Source: Amphirosellinia nigrospora
Taxonomy: Eukaryota > Ascomycota > Sordariomycetes > Xylariales > Xylariaceae
Assembly: GCA_004123355.1 (NCBI GenBank)
Contig: SCHM01000002.1
Span: 5,429,569-5,493,568, forward strand
Length of the DNA stretch: 64,000 nt
Direction of reading: 5' to 3'
Each line of letters begins with the position of its first letter. Position 1 is the first letter of the stretch. Shown here piece after piece: positions 1 to 42,467 of the stretch. A program made the position numbers and the translations under genes. Below the pieces are notes generated by a model. It had not been told where the DNA came from. It did not search any database and saw only the letters and a list, made by a program, of their open reading frames with translations.

Positions 1-2
1 CC

Positions 3-3912: not shown

Positions 3913-3961
3913 CCCGGAGGCACAATTTGCTATTTTCGGTAAGATCTCAGCTCTAAAAACA
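3913..3961 (+). repeat. Left arm of a ~49-bp inverted repeat bracketing the AT-rich block
   Basis: From CCCGGAG (3913) through TATTTTCGG and AGATCTCAGCTCTA to AAAACA (3961), the sequence matches the reverse complement of 42419-42467. The inner 24 bases agree at 21 positions, and two of the three differences are G/A transitions as RIP would leave. The outer half agrees with a few substitutions and one or two small indels. The arms are 38.5 kb apart and point inward. Confidence 0.7.
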
Positions 3962-3992
3962 TATTTCTAGAGCTTTAAAAACATATTTCTAG
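3949..3992 (+). repeat. 22-bp tandem duplication at the inner edge of the left arm
   Basis: AGCTYTAAAAACATATTTCTAG occurs twice head to tail (3949-3970 and 3971-3992) with one C/T difference, followed by a third partial start (AGCTATTA). The first unit overlaps the end of the inverted arm, so part of the arm sequence has been duplicated here. Confidence 0.85.
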
Positions 3993-5710
3993 AGCTATTA
4001 AGTTAACAAGCGTTAAATACTAAATATATATATTTTAAATATTTTCTTTATTATTAAAAATTTTTTAATACTATAAAAAAACAAATACTATTATACTATA
4101 TAAACTAACCGTAATTTATTATTTATTCCGGAATAAAATAATAAAACAAAGTAATTATATTTATATATAATATTTATTATAAAAATAATACTTTAAATAA
4201 ATAATCCGCCTAATAATATATTATTATCGATTTTTTATTAATATAATTTAATATAACGTTAATTATTTATAATTAAACGTTTAGCTAGCTTTTTTATTAA
4301 AATTTAAAATATTATATAACTTTTTTGCTTTAATATAGTTTTATAAAAACAGGTTTTTATATAACTAAAAATAATATATATTAACGTTAAAATAATTAAA
4401 TATAGCGCGTTTTTTCGCAGCTTTATATTTATTATTTAAGCTTTATATTTTACTAAAAAAAAAAATATTTATTAATCTTTTTTTAACAATTATATATTTT
4501 TTTTAATAAATAATTAATAATAATAACGTTTAAATTATTAGCTATTATTTATCGATTATATAATATTTTAGCTTTAAAAAATTTTTTTATTAAGCTTATT
4601 ATATTATAAGCTATAAAAAAAAAACAATATAATTTATTTCGGAAATATTTTTTAATAAATATAAAATTTAATTAAACTTATAACTTTATATTAAAATATT
4701 ATATATTTTCTAAAAAAACAAAAAATCGATATTAAATTAATAAAATATTTTTTATAAAAATATAAATATTAAACAAATAAATTAATATTACTTTATAAAT
4801 AAAAAAAAATATATACTAAGTTTTTTAAAATAAAAAACGTAATAATTATATATTTAATTTTTAAAGCTTTTTTTTAAATATTAATCGATTTATTTAATAT
4901 AATTTTATAAGCGCTAAACTAGCTATTTATAAAAATAGTTTAAAATAAAAAAATCTTTTTATTTTTAAAAAGTAAAAATTTATATACTATAAGCCGCAAA
5001 TAACTAAAAAATAATCTATATTAGTTAAAAATCGTTTTAAACTTAATTGTAGCGCTAATAATATAGTTTTAAAATTTACAAAATCATAAAATAAAAAAAT
5101 ATTATAAATATCGCGTTTTTATTATCTAAATTATTAAAAAACAAATAATAACTTTAAAAAAAAATAACAATTTAAAATATATAAAATTAATAATTAGTTA
5201 TTTTATTTAAACTAAAAAATTATTTACTTTAAATATTTTATATAATAAACTAAAAATTTTTTAAAAAGCTTCCGAAAATATTACTAATAAATAAATATAT
5301 ATAATATTTTAAATGCTTTTTTTTTTAAAAGCGCTTTTAATAAATCGAAAGCTTTTATTAAATTAAAATAGTATTAAAATCTATTTTATTAATAATAAAC
5401 TTTATAATTTTAATAAAAATTAATAATAAAAAAATATAATAATAAAGTTTTAATTTATAATAGCTATAAAATTAAGCTAGAATTTTAATAAAAAAGTATT
5501 AAAATTAAAAAAACGTTTTTATAAGTTTTAAAAAATAAATATTATTAATTTATATTTTTAAATATTATAAAACTAAAGATTTTTTAAACTTAAATATCGG
5601 CAAAAAATAATTAATATTATAGTTTAAAAATAAATTAGCTATTAATTTAATAATTTTTAGTATTTTATAAAATACTTTTTATTAAAACTTTTTACTATAA
5701 TTTTTATAAA

Positions 5711-5800
5711 ATAAATATTTATTATTAAATTATTTTTATAAGCTTTATATAATTATATAGCTTATATAAAAAGTTTTTTTATTTAATTAATTTTTAATCT
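5711..5800 (+). repeat. Dispersed AT repeat 'X', copy 1
   Basis: Core word TTATTTTTATAAGCTTTATA followed by TAATTATATAG, an AAAAGTTTTTTT run and TTAATTTTTAAT, preceded by ATAAATATTTATTATT. The same order of words occurs at 8211-8353 (same strand) and, reversed, at 5886-5975 and 19588-19730. Low complexity makes the exact edges uncertain. Confidence 0.55.
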
Positions 5801-5885
5801 TTATTACTAATATTAATTAACTAACGAAAATATAAATATTAACCGTTAAAATATTTATTATATATTATTAAACTAACTTATATTA

Positions 5886-5975
5886 TTAAAAATAAAAAAA
5901 TTTTTTATATAATTAAATAATTATATAAAACTTATAAAATAATTTTATTAGTTTTATATAATAATAAATATTTAT
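5886..5975 (-). repeat. Dispersed AT repeat 'X', copy 2 (inverted next to copy 1)
   Basis: The reverse complement follows the copy 1 order: ATAAATATTTATTATTAT, AACTAATAAAATTATTTTAT, AAGTTTTATATAATTAT. Copies 1 and 2 form a ~265-bp head-to-head pair with a ~85-bp spacer, which could be a MITE-like palindrome. Confidence 0.5.
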
Positions 5976-8210
5976 ACTTTTTTTTATAAAGTTTATAAAA
6001 CTTTTTATTATATTAAATATTATTTTTTAATATATAGCTATTTTGCTTATATAATATTATTTTTTAAATAAAAAATAATAAAAGTTTAGATATAAAAACT
6101 AAACAAGTTTATATTATTTTTATTTTTTAAAAAAATTTATAATAAAACTAACAAAAAATAAAAAATCGGATAAATCTAGCTTTTTATAATTTTATAAAAA
6201 ATTTAAATATAGCTATATAATATTAACCTAAATTAAAAATAATAATAAAATTATTTAATTAATAATATTTAAGCTTAATATTATTATCGATAATTTTATT
6301 AAATATTTTAATAATACATAAAAACTTATATATAAATATAGTTTTTTTTTTTATTTTTTAAGCAGAAAAAACTATATAACTATATAAGCTAACTTATATT
6401 AAAATAACGGATTTATTTAATAAGATCTATATTAAACGGGGTTTTTTTAAACGATTTAAAATTATTATAGCTACTAATAATAGCAAAAAATAAACTAAAC
6501 TAATTAAATAAAAAAATAATAAATAAATATAAATAAAACTAATATTATTTATAAAATAAAAAACTATAGCTAAAAAATATTATAAATAATTATAATAATA
6601 TTAAATAAAATTAAAAACTAAATAGCTAAATCTAAAATAAATTTAAAAAAAAAAATTTAGCTAAATAACTATAACCGAAAAAGTTTTATATAAAAATTTA
6701 AAATATAATTTTAAAAAGTTCGGATTTAAAAGTTATTAATAAATTTAAAAGCAAGTATTAAAAAAGCTCCGCTTATTTATAAATAATAATCGATTAAATA
6801 AACTTAAGCTTAAAATTTATTATATTTAAGTTTATTAAATTTTATTTTTAATTTTATAGCTTAGTATATTTTACGTAATATTTTATTAAAACTTTTATAA
6901 AAAAATAATTTATTTAATTTTACGACTTATAATATACGTTTTATTTAAAATATAATTTATAAAACTTTTAATAACTTTTTAACGTTAATATTGCTAGGTT
7001 AAAAAATAAAATAATTATATAAATAATAAAAGCCGATTTATTAAGCAGCTTTATTAATTTTATAATTATATTTTTTACGTATAAATATTAAATTATATTA
7101 GTTTTAATTATTTTATTAAATATTTAATAATATTTTAGTTTTAATATATTTTAATAAATAATAAAGCTAATTAAGCCGTTTATTTTATATTTTATTTTTA
7201 ATATAAAAAATTCTATTTTTTTTTATTAAGCGTATAGTTTTTTATATTTTAAAAAAGTAGCGTAAACTTAAAAAAAACTTAATTATTTAATATACGCGTT
7301 TATAATAAAACTAAAACTTCGGGCTTATATTTAGTAGTATTGTTTATAAATAAAGCTTATAAATAATTATTTTAATAAAATAAATATTAATAGCTAATAT
7401 TTTTAAAATTATAAAATATATATATATATTTAATAGTAACGCTAGTTAAAAAAATATATTATTAAACGTTAAAAATTTAAGTTCGAAATATAAAAAAAAG
7501 TTTTTAAAACTTCGTTAGTACTTTTATTAATAGTTTTATTTTTATTAGCCGTATTAACGTTAAAGTTTTTATTAATTTTAATTATTAAAATTAATAGTTT
7601 TACGTTAATATTAAATAATAGCGCTAATAATTTAAACTTTAGTTATATTTTTATTTTAATATTAGCTTTTTTAAAATATTTAATAAATATTATTTTATAA
7701 TATAAATTTAATTATAATATTATATAAAATTAACGTTTTATAATTTTTTTTTAGTTTTAAATATATTTAAATTATATATAATTTAGTTTATTATTATAGT
7801 TTTAATATTTTTATTTTTAGTAAAAATTATTTATAAATTGTTTTTTTGCTATAAAATATTTAATTACTTTTAAAAAAGCCGAATCGATTTTATTTATAAA
7901 TAAAAAGCAAAAAAAAGCAATAAATAATATTCTAGGTTTAATATAGCTTATAAAAAATAAAAAACTAAAATAAATAAAATAAAAATATAAAAAAATATAT
8001 TTAGTTATATTTTATTAAAAGCTAAATATATTATTTTAATTATATTTACTTTTGTTTATTTTATTAATTTATTATTATATTTAAAAAATAAATAGTTATT
8101 ATAGGTTTTATTTTAGTTTTATAATAAAATAAAAATATATATTAATTTTTTTTAAGTTTTAAAATAGTATAGTTTTATTTAATAATAAACTTTAAAAATA
8201 TAAATAGAAA

Positions 8211-8353
8211 TTTTTTTATATTATAATTTCGCAAAAATAAAATATAAATATTTATTATTATTAAAAAACTAATAAAGTTATTTTTATAAGCTTTACGTAA
8301 CTATATAATAATATATATAAAGTTTTTTTATTTAATTAGTTTTTAATTTTTAT
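8211..8353 (+). repeat. Dispersed AT repeat 'X', copy 3 (longest)
   Basis: Runs from a poly-T/TATATTATAATTT start through AAAATAAAATATAAATATTT, AACTAATAAAGTTATTTTTA and TAAGCTTTACGTAACTATAT to AGTTTTTAATTTTTAT. Copy 4 matches along the full ~143 bp in reverse orientation, with mainly C/T and G/A differences. Confidence 0.6.
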
Positions 8354-9289
8354 TTTTAGTATTTTATATTTTACTTTTATATTTAATATATAAGCTAAGA
8401 ATTTTTTAAGTTTATTAGTTTTATTAATATATTACGTATAAAATTATATAAAAAAAAAAAAAAAAAAAAGTTTAACTTTACGTTATAAGTAGCTATTATA
8501 TATTCGCGATTTAATAAAGCAAATATATTTATTATTTATATTGTTTTTATATTATAAATATTATTATTATAAAATAATTATTATAAATAAAGATTATAAA
8601 TATTATAATTTATAACTATTATATAAAATTATTTAAATATATAAATATTAAACGAAGTTTTTCGTACTATATTAATATAAATATTTAAATATTATTAAAT
8701 TTTATAAAAATAGTAAAAGTTAAAATTATTATTTTTGCTACGTTTTATTTAGCTATTTTAAAAATTATAATATTACTTTAGTAATTATATATATATTTTT
8801 ATAAAAAATATTTTAAATTAAGTAATATAGCTAATATAAATTATTTTTTTTATTAATTTTTGTTTTTAGCTTTAAAGCTTTAAATATTTAATTTAAAATA
8901 ATAATAAAGTTTATAAATTTTTTTTTCGTTAAGCGATAATATATAATTAATATATTATAAAGTTTCGATAAATTTATAAGTTTATAATTTAGGTTTAAAA
9001 TAGCTTTATTAGCTTTTATAAACTAGCTTTTTATTTTATTTTATTTTTTACGTTTTTTATATTATTTATATAGCTTTATAAATTTATAAATTATTTAAAA
9101 GCGATTTTTAGCATTATTTTTTTTTAATTAATTTTTTTTTTTAAAGCTTATTAATAAAAAAATAACTTTATTTTAGTAAAATATATCTAGCGTAAAAAAT
9201 ATATTTATAAATATTTTTATTATAATATTTATAATATAATAAAGCTATAAAGTAAAAATATTAATAATAACTAAATATTTAAATAAGAT

Positions 9290-9612
9290 TTTTAATATAA
9301 TATTATTTTAAGCGTAATTATATTATAAAAAAAAATATTAATTATAGCGGGGTTTAAAAGTAGGATTTTTTATTAAAATATTATTTAAGCGTAACTACGT
9401 TATAAAAAAAAAACGTTAGTTATAGCTAAAAGCTTAAAATAAAATTTTTTATCGAAATATTATTTTAAGCGTAATTACGTTATAAAAAAAAACATTAATT
9501 ATAAAAATTTAAAAATAAAACTTTTTATTAAAATATTATTTTAAAAATAATTAAATTATAAAAAAAATATTAGTTATAGCTAAAATTTAAAAATAAAAGT
9601 TTTTAGTAATAT
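9290..9612 (+). repeat. Tandem array, about four 76-80-bp units
   Basis: The word GCGTAATTACGTTATAAAAA and its RIP-altered forms begin units at 9312, 9389, 9469 and about 9545. Each is followed by a TTAGTTATAGCTAAAA-like segment and TTTTTATTAAAATATTATTT. Units differ mainly by transitions, so the array is older than, or was hit by, the RIP episode. Confidence 0.75.
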
Positions 9613-10216
9613 TTTATTAAATATAAAAACTAGTTTTAATAATAACGTTAAATTTATTAAAACTACTATAAAAGCTTTATAATTAAAATTATTTTTAAAA
9701 TTTTAAACGTAAATATTTCTAGTTTTAATATTAATATTTTTAAAAGCTTTAAGCATAATAATAAAAAAGCTAGCTTTTATTAAAGAACTTTTATATTAAT
9801 TTATAAAAAAATATAATTTTTTCGGCATTATTTTTAAGCAAATATTATAAACTTTTAAACTATTATAATATATTTTTAAATTAATAACTTATAAAATATA
9901 ATAATAAAAATTATATTTTATAAAATATAGTTTATTAAAAATTTATTTTTAGCTAAAAAAGTTATATATAATAAATAATATTATATTCGGACTTTTTAAG
10001 TTTATAAGAACTTTATTTATAATAAATAACTTTTAACTAATAAAAGTTTATTTATAATAAACAATTTTTCGCTAAAAATTAAAATAAATAATTTATAAAA
10101 ATAATATGCTAATTATATAATGCTTAGCTAATTATTTTAATAAATATTAATAAAATATTAAGCTAAAATTATTATTAATATTATTAAAAATATTATTTTA
10201 TATAAGTTCGGCCGCG

Positions 10217-10690
10217 TAAATATTTAGCTATTAAAATAATAATATATATATAATTATTATTTTAAAAACGTTAAAATATAATAGCTAGTAAACTAAAATA
10301 TTCTATTTAAATTATTTACTAAACAAACTAAAATATAAAAAATCAGTTTTACTAATAATTAATTATTAATAAAAAACTTTATAATATTATTATTAATAAA
10401 TATAAACTAAAAATAAAATTATATAAATATTTAACTATTAAAATAATAATACTATAATATAATTATTATTTTTAAAAACGTTAAAATATAATAACTAACG
10501 AACTAAAGCATTTTGCTTAAATTATTTATTAAACAAGCTAAAATATAAAAAATCGGCTTTATTAATAATCGGTTATTAATAAAAAACTTTATAGCACTAT
10601 TATTATTAATAAATATACTAGCTAAAAAATAACTAGTTATATAAATATTTAATAGGTTAAATAAAAATATAATAATAATATAACTATTAA
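10217..10690 (+). repeat. Tandem duplication, ~207-218-bp unit, two copies plus a third start
   Basis: TAAATATTTAACTATTAAAA begins units at 10217 and 10424, with a third partial start at 10642. Both full units continue through AAAACGTTAAAATATAATA, AAATTATTTATTAAACAA, AAATATAAAAAATCGGCTTT and TTATTAATAAAAAACTTTAT. The second copy keeps more G/C. Confidence 0.75.
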
Positions 10691-10821
10691 AACTAGTATA
10701 TAAAAGCTAGTAGGTTAAAATATTTAAAATATATTAATTATTAAATAAATTATTTATTTACGGATAAACAAGGTTATATTTAAGCTTATAAAGCTAGGGC
10801 TTAAGTTTAGGTTAAGGCTTG

Positions 10822-10992
10822 AGTTATAACCTAGCTAATAGTGGCCACAACCTATTACGCCAAGCACCTTAGACAGGGCAAAAAGAACGTAGAAGTTAAC
10901 CAAGGTGGAGGCTTGGGCTTCTATAGTGGACTATATGGATTACGGATACCTGCTAGCCACAGGTCAGGGCTAGACTGCGTACTTTGTAACTA
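10822..10992 (+). repeat. 171-bp direct repeat, copy 1
   Basis: AGTTATAACCTAGCTAATAG ... GTACTTTGTAACTA. It is the same length as copy 2 (11203-11373), with about ten differences, all C/T or G/A. Both ends carry AGTTAC/GTAACT-type inverted hexamers (RIP-altered to AGTTAT at the start here). A RIP-altered relative of the T-arm hairpin precedes this copy at about 10793-10820. Confidence 0.9.
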
Positions 10993-11162
10993 CTCCCCCC
11001 TACTTTCAGCCAAGGGTTCGGCCTTAGATCTCCCCCGGCTCTACCGCGGGTAGTTCGTGGGCATTAAGCGTAATTAAGGACCTTGGAGTAGGTTGTGTAA
11101 GTGCGCTATAACGTAGCACTATATAGGACGTTCGGAAAAAGCGACGGGCTACTTTTTGCCGG

Positions 11163-11183
11163 CTGTAGGGCTCGAACCTACAG
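11163..11183 (-). other. tRNA T-arm-like hairpin with a pol III B-box match
   Basis: On the minus strand GTAGGTTCGAGCCCTAC forms a 5-bp stem with the loop TTCGAGC, as in a tRNA T arm, and GTTCGAGCC fits the B box GWTCRANNC exactly. The minus strand continues into GCCGGCA, like an acceptor 3' half. Upstream, TTAGCTAGGTTG (around 11207-11218 on the + strand complement) only partly fits an A box, and no cloverleaf closes. Best read as a tRNA-derived (SINE-like) relic, not a working tRNA gene. Confidence 0.45.
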
Positions 11184-11202
11184 CGCTGGTTACTTTGGTT
11201 AA

Positions 11203-11373
11203 AGTTACAACCTAGCTAATAGTGGCCACAACCTACTACGCCAAGCACCTTAAACAGGGCAAAAAGAACGTAGAAGTTAACCAAGGTAAAAGCTTGGGCT
11301 TCTATAGTAGACTATATAGATTACGGATACCTGCTAGCCACAGGTCAGGGCTAGACTGCGTACTCCGTAACTA
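11203..11373 (+). repeat. 171-bp direct repeat, copy 2
   Basis: AGTTACAACCTAGCTAATAG ... GTACTCCGTAACTA. In this copy G-to-A changes predominate (for example GGTAAAAGC against GGTGGAGGC), while copy 1 has the C-to-T changes, so the two copies were mutated on opposite strands. This is a compact demonstration of RIP. Confidence 0.9.
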
Positions 11374-11459
11374 GTTACGCTTCACACACTCGAAGAGACA
11401 AGGCTCTAGTATATATAGTATATTGCATATAAAATCTATAGATAAAGTAGGAAGGAAGG

Positions 11460-11600
11460 AAGGTCTAAGTCTACAATACAGGCAGCTGCTTAAATACTCG
11501 CGTGGGGCAGCTGCATTTACTGCCAGTGCCTGCCTTCATTCACTGCAACTGCATTCACTGCGAATGGCAGTCACGCATTCACTGCAAGTGGAGATTACGG
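11460..11600 (+). repeat. Short GC-rich repeats (GGCAGCTGC, CATTCACTGC)
   Basis: GGCAGCTGC occurs twice (around 11482 and 11506), CATTCACTGC three times (around 11537, 11551 and 11578) with related ACTGC words between, and GGAAGGAAGGAAGG lies near 11451. These are simple internal repeats of a non-mutated segment. Confidence 0.7.
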
Positions 11601-12376
11601 GTGCTGTGGCTAGTGGTGGGGCATAGCCACCAGAGCCTGCAGATCCGTAACTGCTTGTACTTATATTTAAAATTATTATTATTAAAAAACCTTGATTTAT
11701 AACCCTAGCCTCCGCTATATGTACTTTTTTACCTTTTTAACGTATTATTATTTTAGCTATACTAGTTTTAAATTAAAGTTTATAAAAGCTATATAATTTT
11801 AAAGCTATTTTAGTTAATATAAGTTTTTAAAACGCGCTAATTAATTAATTTTTAAAATAATAATAAAAGCTATTATTAATTTTTAAGGTTATAATTTAAT
11901 AGTATTTTTAACTTTTATTATTATTGTATATATAAATAAATAGTTTATTAATATATTACGTATAAATAAACTATAGCTAAGCTTTATACTAATTAACTAG
12001 CGTATTTTTTTAATTTTATAGCTTAGGTAAAACTATATTTTAGTTATAACTTAAGCAAGCTATTTATTATAAACGTATTATTTAAAAGTAATTAATAATG
12101 CGACGTTAAATATGTTTTATAAAAAAGTTTGCTTTTATATTAAAAAGGTTTAAAAAGTATATAGTGCTAGCGTAATTAAATCGCGGGTTATAAGCAACTA
12201 ATTAGTAATAAAAACGATAATTATACTTTTATATATAAATTTCTTTTATAATATATATATATATATAAGTATATATATTATTAAAATAAATTTTCGAATA
12301 TAATGTTATATATTGCTAACTAATATATTATTTTTTAGGTATGCTATTTTAATAGCATTTTTGTTTTGTTTTAAGC

Positions 12377-12640
12377 AGCTAGGCTAAAATAAAATATAAG
12401 TGCTGTTTAAATATTAAAGTTTTTTTTATTTTTTGTTTTATTATTATTGCTTTAAAGCATTTTTTATTTTATATTAAATAGTTAGGCTAGAATAAAACAA
12501 AATATACTTTTTAAACTATAGTTTAAATATTAAAGTTTTTTTTATTTTTTGTTTTATTATTGTTGCTTTAAATATTTTTTATTTTATATTAAATAGCTAG
12601 GCTAAAATAAAATAAAATATATTTTTTAAACAATAAAATA
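12377..12640 (+). repeat. Tandem repeat, ~103-115-bp unit, about 2.4 copies
   Basis: AGCTAGGCTAAAATAAAA begins units at 12377, 12480 (AGTTAGGCTAGAATAAAAC) and 12595. Each full unit continues through TTTAAATATTAAAGTTTTTT, TTTTTTGTTTTATTATT, TGCTTTAAA and TTTTATTTTATATTAAAT. Less mutated than its surroundings. Confidence 0.8.
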
Positions 12641-15600
12641 AAATAAAAGCTATATTATATTTAAAATAAATTTATTTTAGTTTTTAATTTAACTATTTTT
12701 ATTTAATTTTATTAATTATAGTAAAGTTTTAAAATAGCGGGTAAAAACTATTAATATTATAACTATATAATAAAAATAAAAAGTTTTATATTTTTTATTA
12801 TATTTAAGTTAATATTTATAAATATTTAAAAACATATATATTATAATAAATAGTAAACTTTTAGTAAAAGGTTTGTTTTAGTAAAACTTTTTGTTTTTTT
12901 TAATAAAACGTATATATAAACAAGCGGTTAAAACTTTATTAATTTTACTATAACTTTATAATAAACGTTTTTATTAAAGATATATATTATAAATATATAT
13001 ATTTAAAAAGCAAGCAATTATAAACTTAATAACTAAATTATAGTTTAGCTTTATTATAAGCTTTTTTTTTTTTTTTTTTTTTGTTGTTATAAATCTATAT
13101 ATTTTTAAATATATGCGCAAATAATAAGCGGTAATATAATATATTAAAAACAAAACTATAGTTTAATCGGGTAATATTATTGTTATTATTACTATTGCTA
13201 TTATATTGCTATTATATTATATTGTTATATATATTATTATTATGTTTTTATATATTTTTATTATAAAATAACGTATAAATTTTAATATTAAGTACTTAAA
13301 TAGGTTAAAATATTTTGTTTAAACGTTATAAATTAATTTTTAAGTAATAAAAGTTAAAAATAAGTAATTAAAACATTATAATAATAGATTAAACTATACG
13401 CGTATAAATTAATATAGTTCGTTTAATTTTTTAGTATTAATTATAATAGCTTTTTTATATTTTAATAAAGTAAAAAAATAAAAACTTAAAATATTTTTAA
13501 ACTTTAAAATAAATATATTTATATTAACGTAGGAAAAACAATTAAAATATAAAAATAAAATAGTTAAAATATTAAATATTTAACTATAGTTTTATATATT
13601 TATAATAATTGTTAAACTAAAACTTTATATAATTATATAATATATTTATTTCGGTATAAAAGATTTTTTTTTTTTTATTATTATTTTTTTAGTTTTTTAT
13701 TTTTATATTATTTTACGTATTTTTTTGCTTTTGTTTTTTTGTTTGTTTTATTAGTCCGAGTTAAATTAATAATATATTATTATTTACTAAATAATATATA
13801 ATTATAGTTTAGTTTTATTTAGGTTTTATTATAATATTTTTTTTAATCTTGGTTTTTTTTCTAAGAAATTTATTTGTTTTAAATTAACGGAAAAATTATA
13901 ACTATTAATATTAATTTATTTTAAAATACTATTATATAAAAATTTTAGTAATTTAATAGCTTATAATATATTATATATTAATATATTTTAATAATATATA
14001 TAGTATTAATATAGCTATTAAAAATATTAAAAAATATTTTTAAATATTTAAATATTTATTAAAATATTTATTAAAAGCAATAAAAACTACTAAAATAAAA
14101 TATATTATTAATATAATATTTATATAAAAACTTTAATAACGTACGTATTTTAAAAAACTAAAAATATACAAAATAAATATTATATGTTTAATAAAATAAC
14201 CTAGTAATATAATAAAATATTATTTAACGTATTATATTTATATTGCAAAAAGTTCGTATTAAAAATAATAAAAAATATTTATAAATATATATATAAATAT
14301 TAAATATATATATAAGTATTAAATATATTTAAGTTTTAAGTTTATATTTAAAAGATAAATATATGCTTAAGCGGTAAATATGTTTTTAAATAGTTTTAAA
14401 TTGCTGTAAGATTTTATATTTATTATTTTAGGGATAAAAAATAATAATATTTAAAAGACCTAGTTAGCTAGGTATAAATACTAGGGTTAATGAAATTAAA
14501 AAGATATAATAAGTTAATTATTTAGTTGTCCGGCGTATAAAATAATATTTAAAATATTTTATAAAAGTTTTAAAATATAAAACTATAACGTATTAAATAA
14601 GCTTTATATATAATACTATAATAATATTATAAAATAAAATTATATAAATAAATATATTATAAGTTTAATAGCTTATGCTTTTTTATTGTTTCAATTAAAA
14701 TATAAATAGAATATATTAAAATCTAAAGTTAATATTATTTTTATAAAATAAATTGTTTTATTTAAACGTTAAATAAATAATTAATAAAGAATAAAATATT
14801 AAATAGTATTATTATACTAAAATTATTAAATATAAATATTTTTATAATTATATTTTTAGCTATACGTAAAATTTTCGATAATTTATAAAAGCAATATTAA
14901 AATAAAATCGGTAAATAAGTTTATTTTATATATATAAAACTATTAGTACTTAATATTTATTAAATTTTATAATTATATAATATTTCCGAGTATATTTTAA
15001 ATAAAATATAATAAACTTTTAATTTGCTATTAAGATTTTAAGTATTCGGAGCTATTTATAATAATAAATAACCGCTTAAGCAGCTTTAGTTATTTTACTA
15101 GCTAATAATTTTAACTTATTTATATTATTATTTAATTTTAAAACTATATTAATATTAAGCAATATTTAAAAAGATTATTAGCTTAAACGTTATTAATTTA
15201 TAAAAATTATATTAATATATAATACGCTTTTATTAAAAAAGCACTTAAGCTAATAAAAAACATTATATAGTTTTTATATAGCGGAAAAAAAAGCTTCGAA
15301 AAATATATCGCTAAATTAATAACGTTTTAAAAAATAAAAATAACATATTTAGTACGTATATTATTTAGCTTAAAAATAATAAACGCTAAAACTAAAAATA
15401 ATTATTATATTATTAAATTTTAAATTTTATTTATTAATAAATTTAAATTATTTAATAAATAAATTATACTTTATATTATACGAAATAAAATTTTTTTTAA
15501 TTATATAATAATAAATATATTTTTTTAACGATTATATTATTATAATAGCCCAAGTAATAATATAGTTTAATAAATAGCTATAAATAACCGTAAAATTTAA

Positions 15601-16702
15601 TAATTTTATTAAAATTAAATTTTATTAACGTTATAATAGCTTTTATTAATATTATAACTTTTTATATATAAATTTTAATTATATTATTTTTAAGCCGATT
15701 TTATATAATTATAATTGTTAAAACTATTAAAAAAAAGCGTACTTTTTACGTAGTTAAAAATAAATAGTTTTATTAAAATATAGCTTTTATAGCTTTTTTG
15801 TTTAATATAAATAAATAAAATATTATAATAATAGCTTTTTTAATAAATAAATATATTTAACTTAATATAATATGCTTTTTTATTATATTTAAAAAATGTT
15901 CGATTTAAATATTTATATTATAATAGTTTTTAAGCTTTTTTAAATATTATTTAGCTAATTATTATAATATTAATATTTTACGTTTAAAAATAAACTTTTT
16001 ATAAATTTTGCTTTTTTTAATCTTATTATTCGGCTTAAATTTTATAATTAAAAAATATTATTAGCTTTAATAAATATTATTTATTATTTAACTATTATTT
16101 ATTAGCTATATTATTATATTAAAAGTTTTAATAATTTTATAAATATATAAGCTTATATTTAAAAAAATACCCGAACTATAATAAAAAAAAAAAAATAAAA
16201 AAATATAACATATTATTAAATTATAAAAATTATATTTAAAAATTATACGTAATAATTTAATAAACTTAATTTAAATAAAACTAGTTAATATTTTAAAAAA
16301 GGATTTTTATAAAAAAACATTAAAAAATAATATATATAATATTTATAAAACATTAATAAAAGCAATAAAACCTAAAAAATAATATTATAAGCTAATAAAA
16401 AAAAAAGTATATAAATTAAAACTATTTATTAAATAATATTATAAAAGTTTAAAATATAAAGCTTAAATAAATCTTATATTTTTTTTATAATAATTAAAAT
16501 AAAATAATAATAAAAATTTTAATAATATTAAATAAAAATATAAAATAAACTAATTATTATTTAAAATTCCGTTTATTATTATTTATTTCTAAATAATAAA
16601 CTTTTTATTAATAATAATATATTAATATAATATAATAAAAGCTTTATTTTATAGTTTACAAAAATTAAATTATTTTTTATTATAAAACGGTTTATTAATT
16701 AT

Positions 16703-30243: not shown

Positions 30244-31539
30244 AGTATATTTATAAATAGCGTTAAAATAAAACCCGGAAAAAAAATCCTTTTTATACGT
30301 TTTATATATAAAAAAGCTTTTTATTTTTATATAATATAATTATAGTAAGCTTAAAATAAATATTAAAATAAACTTTTAGTTATAGTTTATATTTAAGTAT
30401 AAAAATAATTTAAGTTTTCCGTAAAAAATAAATAAATAAAATTATAGTTTATTTTTTAAGCTTATTCGAACGCTATAAAATTTATAAAAATATAATTAAT
30501 TTTAGCAAAAATTATATAATATTTATTTAAACTTTTAGTTTTATTAGTAGTTTTTAATTATTTAAATATTATTTTCGTTTTATTTGGACTTATAGCTATA
30601 ATTAAAATTTATTAAATTAAAAAGTTTATATATTTTAATTAATTATTTTTAATTAATTTTTTAAAGTTTTTTTTTTATAGTTTAAAATAAAATAGCTTTA
30701 AAAAAAAATATATTTAATTTTATAAAAATTCTAAAAAAATTTAAATATTAATATAGCTTTTTTGCTTTTTTTTAAAAAGCTAAACTTTTTTTTTATTTTT
30801 TAAATAAAACGCTAAAAAAAATAATAAAAAAATATTAATAATATTTACTTATAAATTTTAGCTAACTTTTTTATATATAGTTTTAATAAATATTATTAAT
30901 AAATATTAAGTTAAAAATTATAATATAATAAATTTATCGAAATTTTTAACTAAATTAAAACTTATTTAATTAAAATATTATTAAAGCTAAATAATATTAT
31001 AATATTATAGTTATATTTTTATATAAAACTATAAATAATAAATATTTTTAAATAAAATATAAAAAAGCTTAATATTATTACTAATAATATATTTTATGTT
31101 TTAATTAATACTTTTTATATTTTTTTTTTTAAATTATATATTATAAAAATTATTAATTTTATAAAGTTAAAATTAAATTTATTTAGTTTAAATTTTTTAG
31201 TTTATTATTATATTTATTTTTATAAGTTTTAAAAAAAATATTAGCTAAAATTAAAAAATTTTTTTATTTATACTTTATTTTTTAAAGCAAAAAATAATAT
31301 TTAAAAAAAAACAAATAAAAAATATTTTTTTTAAATAAATTTTTAATAATATATTAAATAAAAAAGTTTTTTTTATTATATTATAAATATTATAACTATT
31401 AAAAATATTATATAAAAACGTTTATAGTTTTAATATAATAATAAAAATATAACAATAGTTTTATAATTAAATAGTTTATTATTAATAGTTATTCCGATTA
31501 AAATTAAAATTAATAATTTATATTTATTAGTTTTATTAT

Positions 31540-31797
31540 TGTTACAGCCCCACTCTTTTAACCCACTTATCTGGGGCTATGGTTGCACTGTGGCTGCCCC
31601 ACAGGGAATGTGTGGCAGTACTGGGCTAGGCGGTGTAAGGCGGCAGTACTGGCGGTATGGGCACACCCACAAATACTTATTGCCACCTGCAGGTCAATGT
31701 ACTAGTACTTCTTTCCTTTTTTCCCTAAGTAGAAATTAGCTTTTAATATAGGGTAAATTAGGTGTCTGAACCTTTTGCCTGTGTTGCATCCATCATA
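31540..31797. mobile_element. GC-balanced insert, possible solo LTR (258 bp)
   Basis: A sharply bounded island of normal composition. It starts TGTTACAGCCCCACTC and ends near GCATCCATCATA (TA where CA would be expected). ATTAT occurs on both sides (31535-31539 and 31798-31802), which could be a target duplication but is weak evidence in such AT-rich DNA. It contains GGCAGTACTGG twice and a TGGGGC...GCCCCA pair. Being short, it would lie under the length that triggers RIP. No protein family is visible. Confidence 0.4.
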
Positions 31798-31918
31798 ATT
31801 ATTTTATTTTTAAAATACTAAGCAATATATAGTTTTTGTTTGCTTTTTAATATATTTTAAATTTTTAAACTATTTAGCGTTAACTATTAAATAAACTATT
31901 TTATATAATTAAAAAGAA

Positions 31919-32113
31919 TATTATAGGTTATAAATAAAGCTTAATTAAAAGAAAAGAAATTTATTATTAAATTTACATAATGGATTTAATAATAGATTTT
32001 CTAACTAATAGTATATACTAGCTATTTATTTAAATATAAATATTGCTGGTAGTTTTTTTTTATGCTTCGTATAAAAAACTATTAACAATATAAACCTTTT
32101 AAAGGCTTTATTA
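31919..32113. repeat. Left LTR of fossil B
   Basis: 195 bp; matches 39479-39670 along its length, mostly with C/T or G/A differences plus short indels. Confidence 0.75.
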
Positions 32114-35100
32114 AAATACTAAAGTATAAAAAGTTTTTATTAACTTTAATAAATTAATTTAGCTAAACTATATTATAATTATAATTTTTTTATATATATA
32201 TTAATTACTTATTTGTTTTATTTTTTTACTATTTTTTTATAAATTATTATAACTTAAAGCTTTATTAAAAGCAAAAATTTATTTATAAATATATTAAGCG
32301 TTAAAGCGTTAATAATAAAATATTAATAAGATTTAGTATTAAAGCTTTAGTAATTATTTTATATACTTATAAAGCGCTTATTTTCCGTTTTTTTTGCTTT
32401 AAATATAAGTTTAAATAGTAGCCCTAAAAGATTTTTTTTTTTTAGTAATATATATAAAAACTATATTTAAATTAATATTTATTAATAAGTTTTATAATAT
32501 TAAAAATAATACGCTAAATATTAATATTATATTTATAATTTTATTTTTTTTATTTAATTAAATAATCGAAGTTATTTTTTTTAGTTAAAATAATACTTAA
32601 ATATAATTTCGATTTTTAAATATTATTTTATTATTATTATTAAAATATTAGTAGCTTTAACGGGCTTTAATAGTAATATTATTTGCTTAAAAAGTTTTTA
32701 TTATTTTTATATAGTACTATTAAAATAATAATAAATATATATAATAATATTTAAAGAAGTTTAATTTATAAGCTAAGTTGTTAATTTTATGTTTAATAAT
32801 TTAAAGTTTAGTTTATTATTATAAATATTTTTTAAAAGCTTACTAAATAAATAATAACTATTATATAAATAAAAAAAACTTTATTATTTAGTTTAAATTT
32901 TAATGCTTAATATTTATTATTAAAATATTTTTTATTATAGCAGCAGTAAAATTTATAGCTAATTTAGTTTTTATTATAAATAGTTATATAAAACTTTATA
33001 TTTTTAAAATTATATATATATTTAGCTTATAAATATATCGAAAAAGCTAAAAATTTAAACTTAAATAATTATTTATATAAAATAATTATATAGCTTATAA
33101 AAACGTAAAATTAAATTTTATTATAAAATAAAAATTATATTAAGCTAGTTTAACTTAAAATATATATAGTTATAAAATATATTATTTTTAATTATTTAGT
33201 TTTTTTTTTTAAATAAATTATTTTTTATAAATAATACGTAATAGTTATTAATAATTTAATACTTAATATTTTTTATATACTTTTTTAAAAGTTAAAAATA
33301 AACTTATAATCGTAATTAAAAATAATTTTTTTAAAAATATTTTAATTATTTAAAAATATTATTTAATTAAAATTATTGCTTAGTTTTTAATAATATATTT
33401 ATATTACTAAAATTATAAACGTCCGTTTAAACATATAATAAAAAATTATTATTATATAATTATATATATTAAAGCTATTTAACTATTATAAATATTTTAT
33501 AATTTAATAAAATAATATAAAAAAAATTAATTATAATTATTTATATTAATAATACGTTTTTAAGTTTAATTAAACATAAATATTTATTAGTTTTTATTTA
33601 TTATTATAATTAATATTATATTTTAAATAATATTTTTATTTTTTAATATATTATAACTTTTTATAAATCGAATATAGTTTTAAAGTTTTATTATATAATT
33701 AAATCTAAAATAATATTTTTATTATATATAATATATAATATTTATTTATATATTATATATAAACGTAAAATTATTTAATTTTTTATATTTATTATAAATT
33801 AAACTATTTATAATAAAAATAAATACTTAGCTTTAGAAAAAACAATAGCGTTTTTATTATATATAGTTTATAAAATTAATTTTAATAAAATTTGTTTAAA
33901 TTTTTTATAATAAAAGTTTACTTTATATTTTAGCTTAAAATTACGCTTAAATATATTATTTATTATTATTTCCGTAATATATTTTACTATATTTTATATA
34001 AAGTTTAATATAGCAGTTTTTATAATCGCTTTTTTATTTTTTAAGTTTATAATATTTTATTATTATAAGTCGATTTAGCGCATTTAAAATATAATTAAAA
34101 CGTTTTAATATAATAAAATATTTAAAAACTATTATTAATAAATAAATAATAAATAATTATAACTAATTATTTATTTTATTAATAGCGGAAATATTAATAA
34201 AGTTTAATTAATAATATTTTTTATAGCTAAATAATTTATTAAAACTATTATATATTATTTAAATAAATTATTATACGAAGTTTTTTTATAATTTATATAA
34301 AATATATTATTTTTATTTAAAAAGCTATATTTAGTTTTAGCTTATAATAAATATTAATTTAAATATATAATTAGCTATATTTATATAAAAAGTATAAGTT
34401 CGTTTAATTTTTATTCGAATTTAGTTTAATATAAAATTATATATTAAAATTTTATTTAAAATATTTATTAATTTATAAATATAAAATATAATTTAAATAA
34501 TATAATATAAATATAGTTTTAAAATAAATAACGTTTTAAATAATATTAAAAAACTATTTTAATTAATATAAAGTTATAATATATAGTTTATATATAATTT
34601 ATAATAACTTAGATTATTATTTATTATTTTTTTTTTAATAATTTTAGCTAATAAAATATTTATTTTTTATAAAAGCTTAGCTAATTATATATAATAAAAA
34701 AAAATTATAAAAAATTTATTTATACTAAAATATTATTCAAAAGCTTAAAAATTCTTAAAAAATATAAACTACTTAAACGTTTATATGCGTTTTAATATAA
34801 AATATTTTTAAAATTATATAAAATTTAAAAAATTTAATAAAAAAATAACTAATAAAGATTTTTTTAATAATATAATAATATTTTTTAACTAAAATAAACT
34901 AAAAATAATATTTAATATTATATATTTTTTCGAATATATTAAAAAAAATAATAATATTATCGATAAATAATATAAAAATAAAATAAAATAAAACTATTTT
35001 TATATTTTTAAATATAATTAAAAAAATTTATATATTTATTAATATAATTTAAATTTTTTATACTATAAAACTAATAATAATAAATTTATTTTTATAATTA

Positions 35101-38100
35101 AAATAAATTAAAAATTAATAAAAAAAACCTATTATATTAATATAAATAACGTAAGCTTTTTTATAAAGTTTTTAATTATTTTATTTTATAAAAAAAAAAA
35201 ATAGCTATTAAAAATAGCAATTTTATTAAACTATTATAAATTAATAACTATTTAATTTTATTTATATTATAAATTTTTTTTTAAATAATAAATATAAATA
35301 CGTAAAAATATAGTTTTATTTATTTAAGTTATATAATTTATTTCGTAAAATTATTATAAGTTTTATTAAAAATTTTATATTTTTTCGATTAAAAAAATAA
35401 ACTTTATATTTAGTTTTATTTTTATTAATTTTATAAAAAAATTTTAAATTATTTTATTTTAAAATATCGATTTTATTTTTATTTATTTAAATATTATAAA
35501 CTTTAATAATTTTAGCAAACTTAGCTATTTTAAAGCTTTTTTAATATAAATATAAATATTATTATTATTATATTTTAAAAAATCTATAAACTTTTTAATA
35601 TTTAAAATAAATATATTTTAAAGCTTAAGCTTAAAAGTTTTTTAATATTATATATAGTTTTTTAATAATAATATATTTTAATATTTATAATAAAATTATA
35701 TACTATATTAATAAAAAAATATTTAAAACTAAACGTTAAAATATTAATAACTAAAAATAAAAATATTATTTTTTATATAAACTAATAACGTAATTATTAA
35801 TTTTATTAAATATTATTATAAAAATAATTATAAAATTTATTAATTCGTTTATAAATATTAGTTCTATTATATTATATTAGTTTATAGCTATAATTAGCGT
35901 TATATTAAATTTAATATTATAGCAATAAATAAATTTAAATAATTAAAATTTTAAACTAATTATTTTAGCTAATATTATTAAAATAACGCTATAATAATTA
36001 AAGTTTTATAATTAATTTTTATAATTAATATATATATTTTATTATATTTTTATAAATTTATTTTAGTTTAATATTTTTATTTATTTTAATTAAATATATT
36101 ATTAATAATTAAAATAATTTTAAAAATTTTATATTTATTATAATATTTATTATATTTTTATATTATTATAAAATAAAAGTTATAATTAATAAATAATAAC
36201 TTATATTTAATTTATAAATATATATTTTTATTAGCTATAATAGTTATAATATATATTAATAACTTTTTATATATTTATAGCTATAAACTAAACTTCGAAA
36301 TTAATAATAAATTATTAAAATTATAAAAATAATAATATTTTTAAATAATTATAATAACTTTATAAATAAAAAAATTATTATTTAATATATTTAATTATAG
36401 TTTTTTATTTTAATTTAATTTTTTTTTTATATTATAATTTTAAACTATTTATTATTAACTTTTCGAATAAAAACTTAAATTTAGCTTAATATATTATTTT
36501 TATACGTTTATTTTTATAATAATTATTTAATTTTTACGTTTTTATTATATATTTTAACGTATTAAATATTTATTACCGATTATAGTTTTATTTATATTTA
36601 AATCGGTATATATTTTTATATTTTAACTAATTAATATATATACGCAAAATAAAAATATATATAGCTTAAATATAAAACTTTATTATATATATTTATATTT
36701 AACGCTTTAAATATAAATATTTTTAATTTAAAGATTTTATTTAATTTACTTAATATAAATAATAAATTATTATTAAAAATATTTTACTTTTTAACCGTAT
36801 TTTTTTTAATTAATTTATATTAGCTTAAATATTAAAAAATTTATTTCGTAAAATAATATTTAAATATATATTTATATATACTTATTTAAAATAATAAATA
36901 AAAATATTAATACGCGCTATATATTTTAATAAATATATAGCTTATATTTTTATATATAAATAAAATATTAAATAATTATATTTTTATAATATTTATAATA
37001 AATAAAACTAAACTAAATATATAATAAAAATATTATTATTATAATTTCTATCGGTATTATATTTAGATTTTTTTTTATTTAACGCGCGTTATTAGTTTAA
37101 TATATACTATAATAACTATTATATTTTTTATTATAATAATACTTATAATTACTATTATATTATAACTATAGTTATAGCTACGGTTATAATTATAGCTATA
37201 GTTTCGATTACTATTATAACTATTATTACGTTTTTTATTTTTATTATTACGTTTTTTATTTTTATAAATACTTTTTTTATTATTTTTTTATAATAATTAT
37301 AATTTTATATAATATTATTACGTTATTTATTATTTATTATTAAAATAATAATAATATTTATAATAAAATTAATATTTATTTTTTAATCGATAATAATTAA
37401 ATATTTATAATTATTTATTTAAAATATAAATTCTAAAATTTATTATTATTTTTCGAATAATTATAAAAAGTTTAATATTTAAAACTTATATTTTATTTTT
37501 TATTTTAATTTATAATATATTTTATCGATTTTTTTTATATTTATTTAATATATCCTTTTTTTTAATAAATAAATATAATTAATAATTATTTAGCTTATTA
37601 ATTTATATTTTTTATAATATTTTACTAATTAAAATTATTTTAAACTAAAGTTTTATTTTTATAATATATTATAGCTTATATTAATAAATTAAATAAATAT
37701 ATTTTTATTCTATATTATATCAAATAAAAAAAAATTACTTTCGAAAAACTTTTTATAGCGTATTTAAACATATTTTAAACTATTTTTTAGCTTTTTAAAT
37801 ATTAAACTTAAGCTTATTTTCCGCTAAATATAATAATTAATAAGCTTAATTTTATCGTTTATTATAAAAAAACAAAACTTACGAAAAATAATTAAATAGC
37901 TTTAAATTTAACTATTATTTAATAATTCTATATTATTAAACTTATATATAGCTTAAATATATTAAAAAATATATATATATCTATATAATATTTTTTTTAT
38001 TTTATAACTTTTTTTTTTTTAAGTTTTTAATTAAAGTTTAAAACTTTAATATTTTTATATTTAATTTTATAATATTTCCTATTATAAATATAATTAAAAC

Positions 38101-39478
38101 AAAGTTTTATAATTATTATTTATCGCTATAACTATAGCCGCTAAAGCTAACTTTTTATTTAATAAATTTAAATCGTTATTAAAGTTATTTGTTCCGCTAT
38201 TATTTTTATTACTATTATTATTACTATTGCTTATTTTAATTAAAAAATATATTTTTATATTTTTTATATTATTTTTAGGGCAATAAAAAAAAGCGGGAGC
38301 AAGGGTTTATTATGCTTATTATATTTAAAAATAAAAGCGGGAATATTATTATTATTTTTTTTATTTATAGTTATATTATTAAAATTAATTATTATACCGT
38401 AAAAAGCTTGCTAGTTAATATAGTTAAAAATAAAATATTAATAAAAATATAATATCGATTTTTTTAAAACTTTATAAAAACGCTAAAATTTTAATTTATT
38501 TATATAATTAAATTAAATTTATCGTTAATTTACTCAATATTTTTTATAGCTTTTTATATTTAATTTAATTTAATTTTATTTAAAATTATTATTTTTTATT
38601 ATTTTAAAAATATATTTATAGTTTCGGCATTAAATCCTAGCTACTAATTTAATTTTTTAAACAAAACTTTATAAATTTTTAACTTATTATCGCTAATTAA
38701 GCTTTAATATTAATATTAGCTTCGGTTATTTCCGCGCTAATTTTATTTTTTTATTTCGTTTTAACTTTTTAAATTATATTATCGGACAATTTATAAACGT
38801 TTTTAATAAAATATATATTAATAATAATAATACTTATTTTAATAATTATTACGCTAAAAATTAAAAAAAAAAACTTTAAATAAAAGTTTTCTAATAAATC
38901 TAACATTTAATTTAATAAATAATTAAATACGTAAAAAATTATTATTTATTAGTTTATATTTATTATTTTTATATAACGTTATAATAATAACTTAAAATAA
39001 AATAAATTATACACAAATAAAATAAAATAAATATATTAATTTATAATTATATTTTAATAATAAAACTAATATATTTATAAATTTTAACAGCGAACTAAAA
39101 CGTTTAAAAACTTTATAATAAAATTAAAATATTTAAACAATTAATTAATAAAAATCTATAACGTTTATAATTTTATAATTTTTAGTTATATTATAAAAAC
39201 TAATATATTTAAAATATAAAATATTTTATTAAGCTTTTTTTAAAGCTAAATAATTAACTTATTTAAAAGCTTTATAAAAAATATAAAAATAAAATATAAA
39301 ATAAATTAATACTAAAGCATAATATTTGCTTTAATTAATAAATATATATAAATTACATATATTAATTACCGCCGAAAAAATTAATATTTTTTAACTTTAA
39401 AAAATTTAAAAATAAATAGTTTTTAATATAGTTTAGTATTTATAATAAAACTATATAATAAACATTACTTTAAAAAAA

Positions 39479-39670
39479 TATTATAAATTATAAAATAAAA
39501 CTTAATTAAAAAAAAAAATTTATTATTAAATTTACGTAATAAATTTAATAATAGATTTTTTAACTAATAGTATGCTAGCTATTTATTTAAATATAGTATT
39601 ACTAGGTAGCTTTTTTCTACGCTCCGCGCAAAAAACCACTAGCAATATAAACCCTTTAAAGGCTTTATTA
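39479..39670. repeat. Right LTR of fossil B
   Basis: 192 bp; less mutated in its second half (39590-39660) than the left copy. Confidence 0.75.
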
Positions 39671-40659
39671 ATAATTAATAAAAATTATTAATATATTAAA
39701 ATAATATTACGTTTATTAATATATTAAATAATTATTAGTTTATATTATTTTTAATTAAATTATTTTATAAAATATTATTATAAGCAAAAAACTACTAAGG
39801 TTTAATTTTTTTTTGTTTAGTTTAAATAATTTTTAATAAATATTAAATTAATTTCTAAATAATAACTTAACTAATATTTTAGCTTAAAATAGCCTAGCTT
39901 TAGTTTAAAATAGTTTAATTTTAATTTAAAATAACTTAGTTTTTATAAGCTTAGTTTTTTTAAGCTTATTTATATATAATGCTTTAAAAAAAACTATAAA
40001 TAGTTTTAAAGCTTATAAAAATAATAAGCTTATATATGCGCTAAATATTATTTTTTACTATTCGGAATACCGTTATTATATAATTCGTTTTTTTAATATT
40101 TATAAAAACTTAAATAAAATTAGTTTTAAGTTTTAGTTTTAATTTAACGTTAGTATTTTTATTACGTATAGTTTAACGCAATATAATAAATCGTAGTTTA
40201 AACAAGCAATTTTTTTATAACGTTTTAAAAATATATATTTAATTTTAAACTTTAAATAAATATTATTACTATATTTAATAGCTAAAATTATATATTAACG
40301 TAAAAATATAAACTTTTTTATTTTTTAATTTAATAGTTTTTTCGAATAGCTTTTTAATAAATATTATTATAATAAGCTTTATTTCGGACTAAAATAATAT
40401 ATTAGTATAAAACTTTAGTTTAATAATCGCTAAATTAGCGGTATTTTTTATTTTAGTTAAATCGTTAAACTTTAAAAACTTCGGCTATTTAAAGCTTTTA
40501 TTAAAGTTATAATTTATAACTTAATAATACTTAAAAAAAGCGAAATTTAACAATAAAAATAAATTAATAAATAAAAGTATTATAAACAAGTTAATAAAAA
40601 AAAAAAAATTTTTTATTAAAAAAAAAACGGTTATATATAAAAATAAAAACTAAATTAAA

Positions 40660-40800
40660 AAATATAATTATTTTAATTTATAATTAATTAAAGCGGTTAA
40701 GCTTAAAACTAAATTAAAATATAATTATTTTAATATTATAATTAGCTAAAATAGCTAAATTAAAAATATAATTATTTTAATATTATAGTTTTTATATTTA
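40660..40800 (+). repeat. Short tandem repeat, about three ~57-bp units
   Basis: CTAAATTAAAAWATATAATTATTTTAATWT occurs three times (about 40650, 40708 and 40755), separated by AATTAGCTAAA/AATTAATTAAAGC spacers. Low complexity, so the edges are approximate. Confidence 0.5.
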
Positions 40801-41900
40801 AAATAGCTTTATATTTATTTTTTAGCTTTATAAACTTTCATAAATTTATATAACTATTTGTTTATTATTTTATTTAAATAAAATAACCTTTTAATTTTTA
40901 TTTATTATTTTTAAACTATTTAAAGTTTTTAAGTTTATATTCGTTATATTTATAATTTTATACTTTATTATATAAGGATTAAAATTAGTTTTATTTTTAT
41001 AATTTAGCGCTATTAAAACTAGGTTATAATAAATAATATATAAACTAGCTATATATTTATTATTATTTAATAGCTAATAAAAACTTTTTTTAAATTTATT
41101 TTAGTATTAGCTAATAAATTATTATAATTATTTTAATAAATAAAATTTATATATTTCTCCGAAATATTATATATTTTATATTTTAGCGTAGCTATTTTTT
41201 TATTATAGCTATAAAAGCTTTTTTATATTTAAATATAAAATATTAAATTTTATTAAATATATTTATAATATATATATATAGCAAATATAGTTAAAGTTTT
41301 ATTATATATATAATTTAAACTAGTTTTAAAATAATAGTCCTAAACTTTTAAATCGTATTATAAATCGTTAAAAATAGCATTAAATATAGTTATATTACTA
41401 ATTTTATATTAAATTTTTAAGTTCTTTTTAATAAGCATATTTAATAGTATTATTAAATATTAGCTAGGTTTTTTATAAGATTAAATAATTATATAAATTA
41501 TAGTTCGTATATATATTTTAAACAAAATAGTTTTTAAGCTTCGCTATAATTATTTATTTTTAACTAATAATTATTAGCTTATTTAAACTTATTTATTTAA
41601 TTAACAGTTAAACAAAATTATTATATAATATTAAACTAATTATATATTTAATACATTTTTGCTGCTTTTTTCGGTAAAAATTTTAGCTTAAAAAGATTTT
41701 ATAAAGCTTAAAAATAATAATTTATAAAATAATATTTTAACTTAATACTTAAACTTTATAGCTTAGTAATATTATAGTTTGTTTAAATAAAAACTAAATA
41801 TTTAATAGTTATTATAATTAAAATCTTTTTTTTTCCGAACTTATATTATATAATTTTTTAGCTCGTACTATTAGCTAATATTACTTTAGTACTTTTTTTA

Positions 41901-42126
41901 GCAAGTTAATATAACAAAAAAACATATAGCAAATATTATAAATTAAAACCCAAGTTTTATTTTAAACTAAATTATAATAAAAAAAGCTCAGCTTTATAAT
42001 AAAAAGTACTCTATAATAAAAAGTACAAGCAAGTATAACAAAAAAGCATACAACAAATATAACAGATCAGAACCCAAGTTCTTTTAACTTTGCACTAGAA
42101 CAAAAAAATTCAGCTCCATACAAAAA
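41901..42126 (+). repeat. ~100-bp tandem duplication at the fading edge of RIP
   Basis: Copy A (41901-42005) and copy B (42029-42126) share GCAAGTATAACAAAAAA, CATACAACAAATAT, AACCCAAGTT and CAGCTCCATACAAAAA in order, with a TATAATAAAAAGTAC doublet between them. Copy A shows many C-to-T and G-to-A changes where copy B keeps C or G (TTAAAACCCAAGTTTTATTT against TCAGAACCCAAGTTCTTTTA). The mutational load therefore drops within about 100 bp towards the right edge. Confidence 0.8.
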
Positions 42127-42172
42127 TTAATTAGTAAAATAAATGTACAGCCAGCACATCATACAATAAGGC

Positions 42173-42417
42173 TGTCACAGTAAAGTGGATACTGCTCCCC
42201 TAGATGAAGCTATTCCCAAGGGGGTCTATAGACCCATATGGGGATCTTCGGAGGTTAGGTCACGTGAACGCGTACACAGGCCTGTATATATAGGGCACAG
42301 GGCAGTCAGACTGCCCTGCGGGCTTTTTGACCCCTGCAGATCTCCGTGACAGAGGCACTTGTGTTAATACACTAGATACGCAACTCACGAAACAGTCACG
42401 AAACAGACTTACGAACA
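42173..42417. mobile_element. LTR-like segment with TG...CA ends (245 bp)
   Basis: Runs from TGTCACAGTAAAGTGG to ACTTACGAACA at normal composition. It carries a TATA-like GTATATATAGGGC (42282-42296 region), a perfect hairpin GGGCAGTC-A-GACTGCCC (42300-42316), and two CACGAAACAG repeats. No matching target duplication is seen (AAGGC before, GTGTT after), so it is more likely one end of a larger, otherwise mutated element than a clean solo LTR. Family not assigned. Confidence 0.5.
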
Positions 42418-42418
42418 G

Positions 42419-42467
42419 TGTTTCTAGAGCTGAGATCCTTCCGAAATAGGAAATCGTTGACTCCGGG
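42419..42467 (-). repeat. Right arm of the ~49-bp inverted repeat
   Basis: TGTTTCTAGAGCTGAGATCC ... TTCCGAAATAGG ... GACTCCGGG is the inverted partner of 3913-3961. This copy is unmutated in the G/A-variable positions (CTAGAAACA on the complement where the left arm has CTAAAAACA). It begins two bases after the LTR-like segment ends. Confidence 0.7.

Follow-up and report, generated by a model that had tools for sequence, protein, structure and literature searches.

Here, we propose that the AT-rich block in the window (the whole stretch of DNA analysed, 64,000 nucleotides long) occupies an old imperfect palindrome of about 100 bp, lying between convergent reading frames, in which an insertion accompanied by a 13-bp duplication separated the two halves at the centre; later repeats would then have filled the site and been mutated by repeat-induced point mutation (RIP). 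We give this reading an even chance of being correct. The two inverted arms at the edges of the block (Table 1) would be the halves of one palindrome; repeated DNA would have inserted at its centre, leaving a 13-bp target duplication (TGTTTCTAGAGCT) at both junctions; more repeats would then have accumulated at the insertion site; and RIP would have taken the repeated DNA to about 10% GC while largely sparing short single-copy pieces, the arms included. We infer that the halves were formerly joined, and likewise the order of events and which element arrived first. What is left would be a scar, for which we propose no present function, and the locus has the look of the routine decay seen in fungal genomes, its footprint being unusually neat; it does not resemble a giant mobile element of a new kind.

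The inverted repeat itself is genuine and scores well beyond its resampled controls. With gaps allowed, 3913-3961 and the reverse-complemented 42419-42467 align at 42 identical columns out of 50, with 6 substitutions and 2 one-base gaps, so that both arms are borne out where the earlier note had placed them; its further claim, that the arms share sequence blocks in the same order, also holds in this alignment (CCCGGAG, TTTCGG and GATCTCAGCTCTA). The local score of the pair is 56, whereas first-order resampling of the two junction regions (500 times) never gave more than 28 and resampling of the whole flanks (20 times) never more than 34. Scanning the 49-base arms without gaps in purine/pyrimidine code fails to single out the true partner, which the left arm matches at 41/49, no better than an unrelated site in the flanks, and the pair is absent from the 25 longest of the 1155 inverted pairs listed by a general repeat finder, all 25 of which are AT-rich. 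An exact 19-base arm word has no match in viral and prokaryote contigs (as distinct from fungal collections), and no occurrence of three arm words was found in literature text. The six substitutions comprise three transversions and three transitions, and since every transition has A in the left arm and G in the right, the pattern is that expected of RIP on the left arm.

When 3905-3961 and 42419-42475 are joined in silico, they form one long imperfect hairpin (-56.8 kcal/mol with RNA parameters, -32.3 with DNA parameters), and the arms meet at the palindrome centre without a spacer. The inverted-repeat score at the join is 56; no hairpin in either flank scores above 23. The joined centre falls 416 bp past the end of the left frame at 3545 and 357 bp from the stop of the right gene at 42776. 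A hairpin centred between convergent frames makes a split palindrome the simplest account. The flanks on either side hold genes and gene remnants; among the 10 scanned of the 38 ORFs of at least 120 aa, the Pfam names include a RING finger, a piece of glycosyl hydrolase family 92, a ferritin-like protein, a PAF acetylhydrolase-like protein, a dextranase-type repeat and an SPT8 beta propeller. Taken with the RIP signature, these names suggest a filamentous ascomycete. A remnant at 2141-2644 resembles an Ulp1-type protease (E 0.092, below cut-off), its frames apparently shifted.

Table 1. Features of the locus, in positions of the window
Feature	Positions	Strand	Basis
Left neighbouring open frame, directed towards the block	2682..3545	+	No Pfam match
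Left arm of the inverted repeat, half of the inferred palindrome	3913..3961	+	42/50 columns identical to right arm; score 56 vs control maxima 28, 34
22-bp tandem unit, 2.4 copies, each unit a near-palindrome	3949..4001	+	TRF period 22, 93% match
TATTTCTAGAGCT, 13-bp direct repeat at the left junction, abutting the left arm	3962..3974	+	12/13 identical to 42419-42431
AT-rich block (10.6% GC), mosaic of RIP-mutated repeats with un-RIP'd islands	3997..42100		Composition; dinucleotides; purine/pyrimidine repeats
Un-RIP'd island with 172-bp direct repeat (10821-10992, 11202-11373)	10751..11730		Composition; purine/pyrimidine repeats
Second un-RIP'd island in the block	31491..31820		Composition
Un-RIP'd stretch, 45.6% GC, short palindromes and CACGAAACAG tandem, adjoining the arm	42101..42418		RIP edge to right arm
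TGTTTCTAGAGCT, 13-bp direct repeat at the right junction, opening the right arm	42419..42431	+	Sequence match
Right arm of the inverted repeat	42419..42467	-	Gapped alignment and resampled controls
Right neighbouring gene, SWIM-like and RING zinc fingers in successive frames, directed towards the block	42776..43699	-	RING E 3.3e-7, above cut-off; SWIM E 0.0077, below

The junctions carry a second piece of evidence. The start of the right arm is copied at the left junction, in a place and direction that suit a target duplication starting exactly where the arms would meet. The sole difference between TATTTCTAGAGCT and TGTTTCTAGAGCT is a G/A transition of RIP type. No 12/13 match to the junction repeat occurs among 76,254 13-mers of 4001-42140 or among 50,774 13-mers of 1-3900 and 42501-64000, both strands being counted. 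When 3930-4059 is compared with 42330-42449, no transversion-free direct match outranks the repeat, which only its own 11-base core equals. A further copy at 3984-3996 comes via the 22-bp tandem. This tandem unit also makes up 3948-3997, a perfect 50-bp palindrome in purine/pyrimidine code that continues the left arm inwards; its copies differ by one C/T only, which suggests that the extra unit may postdate RIP. Folded alone, the left junction (3935-4010) is unexceptional (z -0.95, with 39 of 200 shuffles folding as well), a point against the split. Of the three origins that the earlier note had offered for the block, an older short element split by the interior is thus the best supported, through the spacer-free join and the 13-bp junction repeat.

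Several details tell against a split palindrome. A duplication of 13 bp is an unusual length, to our knowledge, except in LINE-like or break-repair insertion, and no LINE is recognised. The extra 22-bp unit at the left junction requires a second event, the un-RIP'd stretch at 42101-42418 has no partner among the best 70 of 647 repeats, and no duplication of length 4-12 at the palindrome's own outer ends exceeds chance.

The palindrome and tandem at the left junction also look like template switching. An inversion with staggered breaks, or template switching that copied breakpoint sequence in inverted form, might therefore have made the arms, as both processes can leave inverted duplications at the two ends. 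Against this, an identity of 84% between the arms, with both transversions and gaps, would imply an old event, yet transitions are the only changes in the junction palindrome. We regard this origin as very improbable; the inversion or duplication put forward in the earlier note keeps that small chance, but it explains fewer details than a split palindrome does.

The composition of the block is of RIP type. GC content is 10.6% in 3997-42100, against 50.1% in the left 3.9 kb and 51.8% in the right 21.5 kb. The dinucleotides CA, TG, TC and GA stand at 0.22-0.29 of expectation; with CA at 0.27, TG at 0.22 and TA at 1.11, both CpA/TpG depletion and TpA excess are found. Correspondingly, (CA+TG)/(AC+GT) is 0.25 in the block versus 1.04 and 1.10 in the flanks, and TA/AT is 1.22 versus 0.87 and 0.81. 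Counted over both strands, 3278 C survive in 35,000 block bases, 2122 of them in ACT, GCT or ACG and only 20 in TCA and CCA together. Across 4000-42100, C is scarce before A and also after T, and the mutating context looks like NCA plus TCN, not CpA alone.

The interior is a mosaic. Repeats were searched for in purine/pyrimidine code, which RIP leaves unchanged, and those found inside the block span only part of it, with several lengths and spacings: 21757-22044 with 28813-29102 (99.3% in that code), 10210-10395 with 10417-10605, and 31912-32114 with 39472-39671. A minisatellite at about 29451-30259 has an 89-bp unit in about nine RIP-mutated copies. Besides the two islands of Table 1, a third stretch (39551-39670) exceeds the 28% GC threshold. 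Inspection by eye picks out a stretch in the island at 10751-11730 that resembles the T-arm of a tRNA, but neither ARAGORN nor Rfam reports a tRNA in that island. Relaxing the Rfam thresholds over 10600-11900 yields one match (E 0.29, below its family cut-off), and a window-wide Rfam search at gathering thresholds together with a tRNA scan returns nothing. The block has no closed ORF of at least 120 aa, and the 10 scanned of the 22 stop-to-stop ORFs of at least 60 aa in 4000-42400 give no Pfam match above cut-off (one hit, E 0.035, below). In the right flank, a 120-bp piece at 50533-50656, in the open frame 50467-51150 (minus strand), is not RIP-mutated and has four RIP-mutated relatives within the block (5727-5814, 5906-5998, 8213-8353 and 19587-19730; about 95-97% alike in purine/pyrimidine code).

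The earlier note had set the arms at the composition boundary, and this applies to the left side, where the change lies inside the arm and the following 40 bases (about 3950-4000), but not to the right, where the edge is about 320 bp inside the arm. There, composition changes at about 42000-42140, some 280-400 bp inside the right arm, and RIP-type sites per 100 bases climb to flank level between 42000 and 42200. A tandem of about 124 bp pairs 41901-41958 with 42025-42082; its left copy is RIP-mutated and its right copy mostly not, which places the RIP edge between the two. From 42140 to 42418 there are many short palindromes (e.g. CAGGGCAGTCAGACTGCCCTG), together with TATATATA and the CACGAAACAG tandem. 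This stretch may be a solo LTR, the LTR reading being a guess, or the end of another element. Neither an LTR partner in the block for 42101-42418 nor a long direct or inverted pair at the block ends is found among the best 70 of the 647 purine/pyrimidine repeats, the lowest of which scores 28, below the control top of 34.

This right edge bears on whether the arms are the terminal inverted repeats of a giant DNA element at 3913-42467, or of an autonomous transposon with later nested insertions. The inverted orientation, the edge position and the length and identity of the arms are all typical of terminal inverted repeats. Such an element would, however, be expected to show outer direct repeats, a recombinase or coherent interior, and an equal RIP state to both ends, and none of these is seen. 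At the outer ends, within 8 bases of the arm ends, no direct repeat of length 4-12 exceeds chance; the best, 6/7, comes from within the arms' CCGG, and 64 of 300 random junction pairs equal or beat it by reaching at least 6. About 320 bp inside the right arm are free of RIP mutation, whereas the arm-bearing 38.5 kb, as one repeated unit, should show RIP at the right arm too, an argument that is non-decisive because RIP can fade near ends. The un-RIP'd islands and the internal repeats of differing spacing make the interior a mosaic, it lacks a closed ORF of the length given above, neither a transposase nor a captain is recognised in 10 of the 22 block ORFs of at least 60 aa, and a giant element would give the 13-bp inner palindrome at its left end nothing to do. 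We therefore consider terminal repeats improbable.

On these grounds (no outer duplication, an un-RIP'd right edge, a mosaic interior and no recognised recombinase), the suggestion in the earlier note of one giant composite insertion with the arms as its ends finds little support. Its observation that no captain-type recombinase is visible stands, as none appears in 10 of the 38 window ORFs of at least 120 aa or in 10 of the 22 block ORFs of at least 60 aa, though a captain could be hidden by RIP. The bolder claim that the 38.5-kb block is an undescribed giant element, RIP-decayed, with CCCGGAG termini and palindromic inner repeats, or its milder form, that fungal transposons here favour palindrome centres for landing, seems to us quite improbable.

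The main rival is that a short dispersed repeat, or the end of one transposon family, supplied each arm separately, the two copies having come by chance to be opposed at the edges of the nest, with the palindromic inner part present in the left copy and missing from the right. We hold this to be unlikely, while giving it some weight. The three transversions and two gaps between the arms are as expected of old separate copies, and the block contains two weak arm-like stretches in the same direction as the left arm: 41663-41694 (score 32) and 22751-22778 (score 31). In the controls, 150 simulated blocks reached at most 28 and 200 shuffled arms at most 30. Both arm-like stretches contain TTTTCGGTAA, which also occurs at 29830 in the minisatellite. 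The first, at 41663-41714, also spans the inner palindrome and, queried with 88 bases, scores 49, where 150 simulated blocks reach no more than 46; with RIP-aware scoring, however, the 88-base query gives 44, within the control range (maximum 46). In an additional control, a score of 49 compared with a highest value of 43 in 20.

With a longer query, the 41663 stretch is marginal and the 22751 stretch falls within the control range: for 3913-4010, the former scores 49 and 41 and the latter 41 and 33, where the highest values among 40 simulated blocks are 47 and 39, and for 3913-4060 with standard scoring other sites reach 54 and 53 versus 56, almost equal. The arm may thus belong to a repeat family, and if the arm-like stretches are real, the case for dispersed copies gains. 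Against it, the best score of the right arm in the block is 20, versus a control mean of 20.5 (standard scoring), and about 25 kb of GC-rich flank holds no further arm copy (best scores 21 for the right arm and 22 for the left; when the right-end query is lengthened to 42301-42480, it scores 30 at 49201-49600 in the flank, short of the 34 reached by the whole-flank controls). Inward of the arms, the two sequences are unlike each other (score 13, control mean 13), and the edge placement at both sides and the exact meeting at the palindrome centre would be left to chance. Because the left arm, 22751 and 41663 are evenly spaced, we considered whether the block is a tandem duplication of about 18.85 kb, and rejected this, all offsets of 18780-18959 scoring below 52/60 in ungapped purine/pyrimidine comparison.

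If the palindrome was indeed split by the insertion, the scar marks the starting point of the AT-rich block, at a hairpin-forming spacer between convergent genes in a RIP-competent genome. If such seeds were common, palindromes, which are fragile as cruciforms, would offer a testable answer to why AT-rich blocks arise at particular places; a single case alone shows only ordinary nested decay with a clean footprint. A limited literature search at the level of titles and abstract openings, which is no proof of absence, found no report of an AT-rich block inside a split palindrome.

How does this locus compare with known systems? Like a terminal-inverted-repeat DNA transposon, it has inverted terminal repeats; it differs in that an outer target site duplication (lengths 4-12) is absent and that 10 of the 22 block ORFs yield no transposase, RIP-destroyed coding sequence not being recognisable. 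Short palindromic or MITE-like elements are about 100 bp long, have inverted halves and lie between genes. The inferred palindrome would be alike in its length of about 100 bp, its inverted halves and its intergenic place; it differs in having no outer target duplication beyond chance at lengths 4-12, and so is not classifiable as a MITE or a transposon.

Starships are described as carrying a captain as their first gene and as frequently having flanking direct repeats and asymmetric inverted ends (PMC12257634). The block resembles them in its large size and inverted terminal sequences, and RIP-damaged Starship copies are known from the same text (PMC12257634). It differs in that no DUF3435 captain appears in the 10 of 22 block ORFs and 10 of 38 window ORFs scanned, although RIP would hide one, in that outer direct repeats of lengths 4-12 are not beyond chance at its ends, and in that no cargo genes are recognised in it (no closed ORF of at least 120 aa).

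The closest parallel for the interior is Trichoderma reesei QM6a, for which one report gives 2349 AT-rich blocks, 9 of them of 20-50 kb and almost all predicted to be RIP-affected (PMC5496416). There, as here, AT-rich DNA lies between gene-bearing DNA and is attributed to RIP, whereas the passages on those blocks describe no inverted repeat at block edges (PMC5496416). A further difference is that here surviving C is scarce after T as well as before A. Since RIP-mutated AT-rich blocks are common elsewhere, the block itself is ordinary, and the unusual part of this locus is the edge that we read as a split palindrome.
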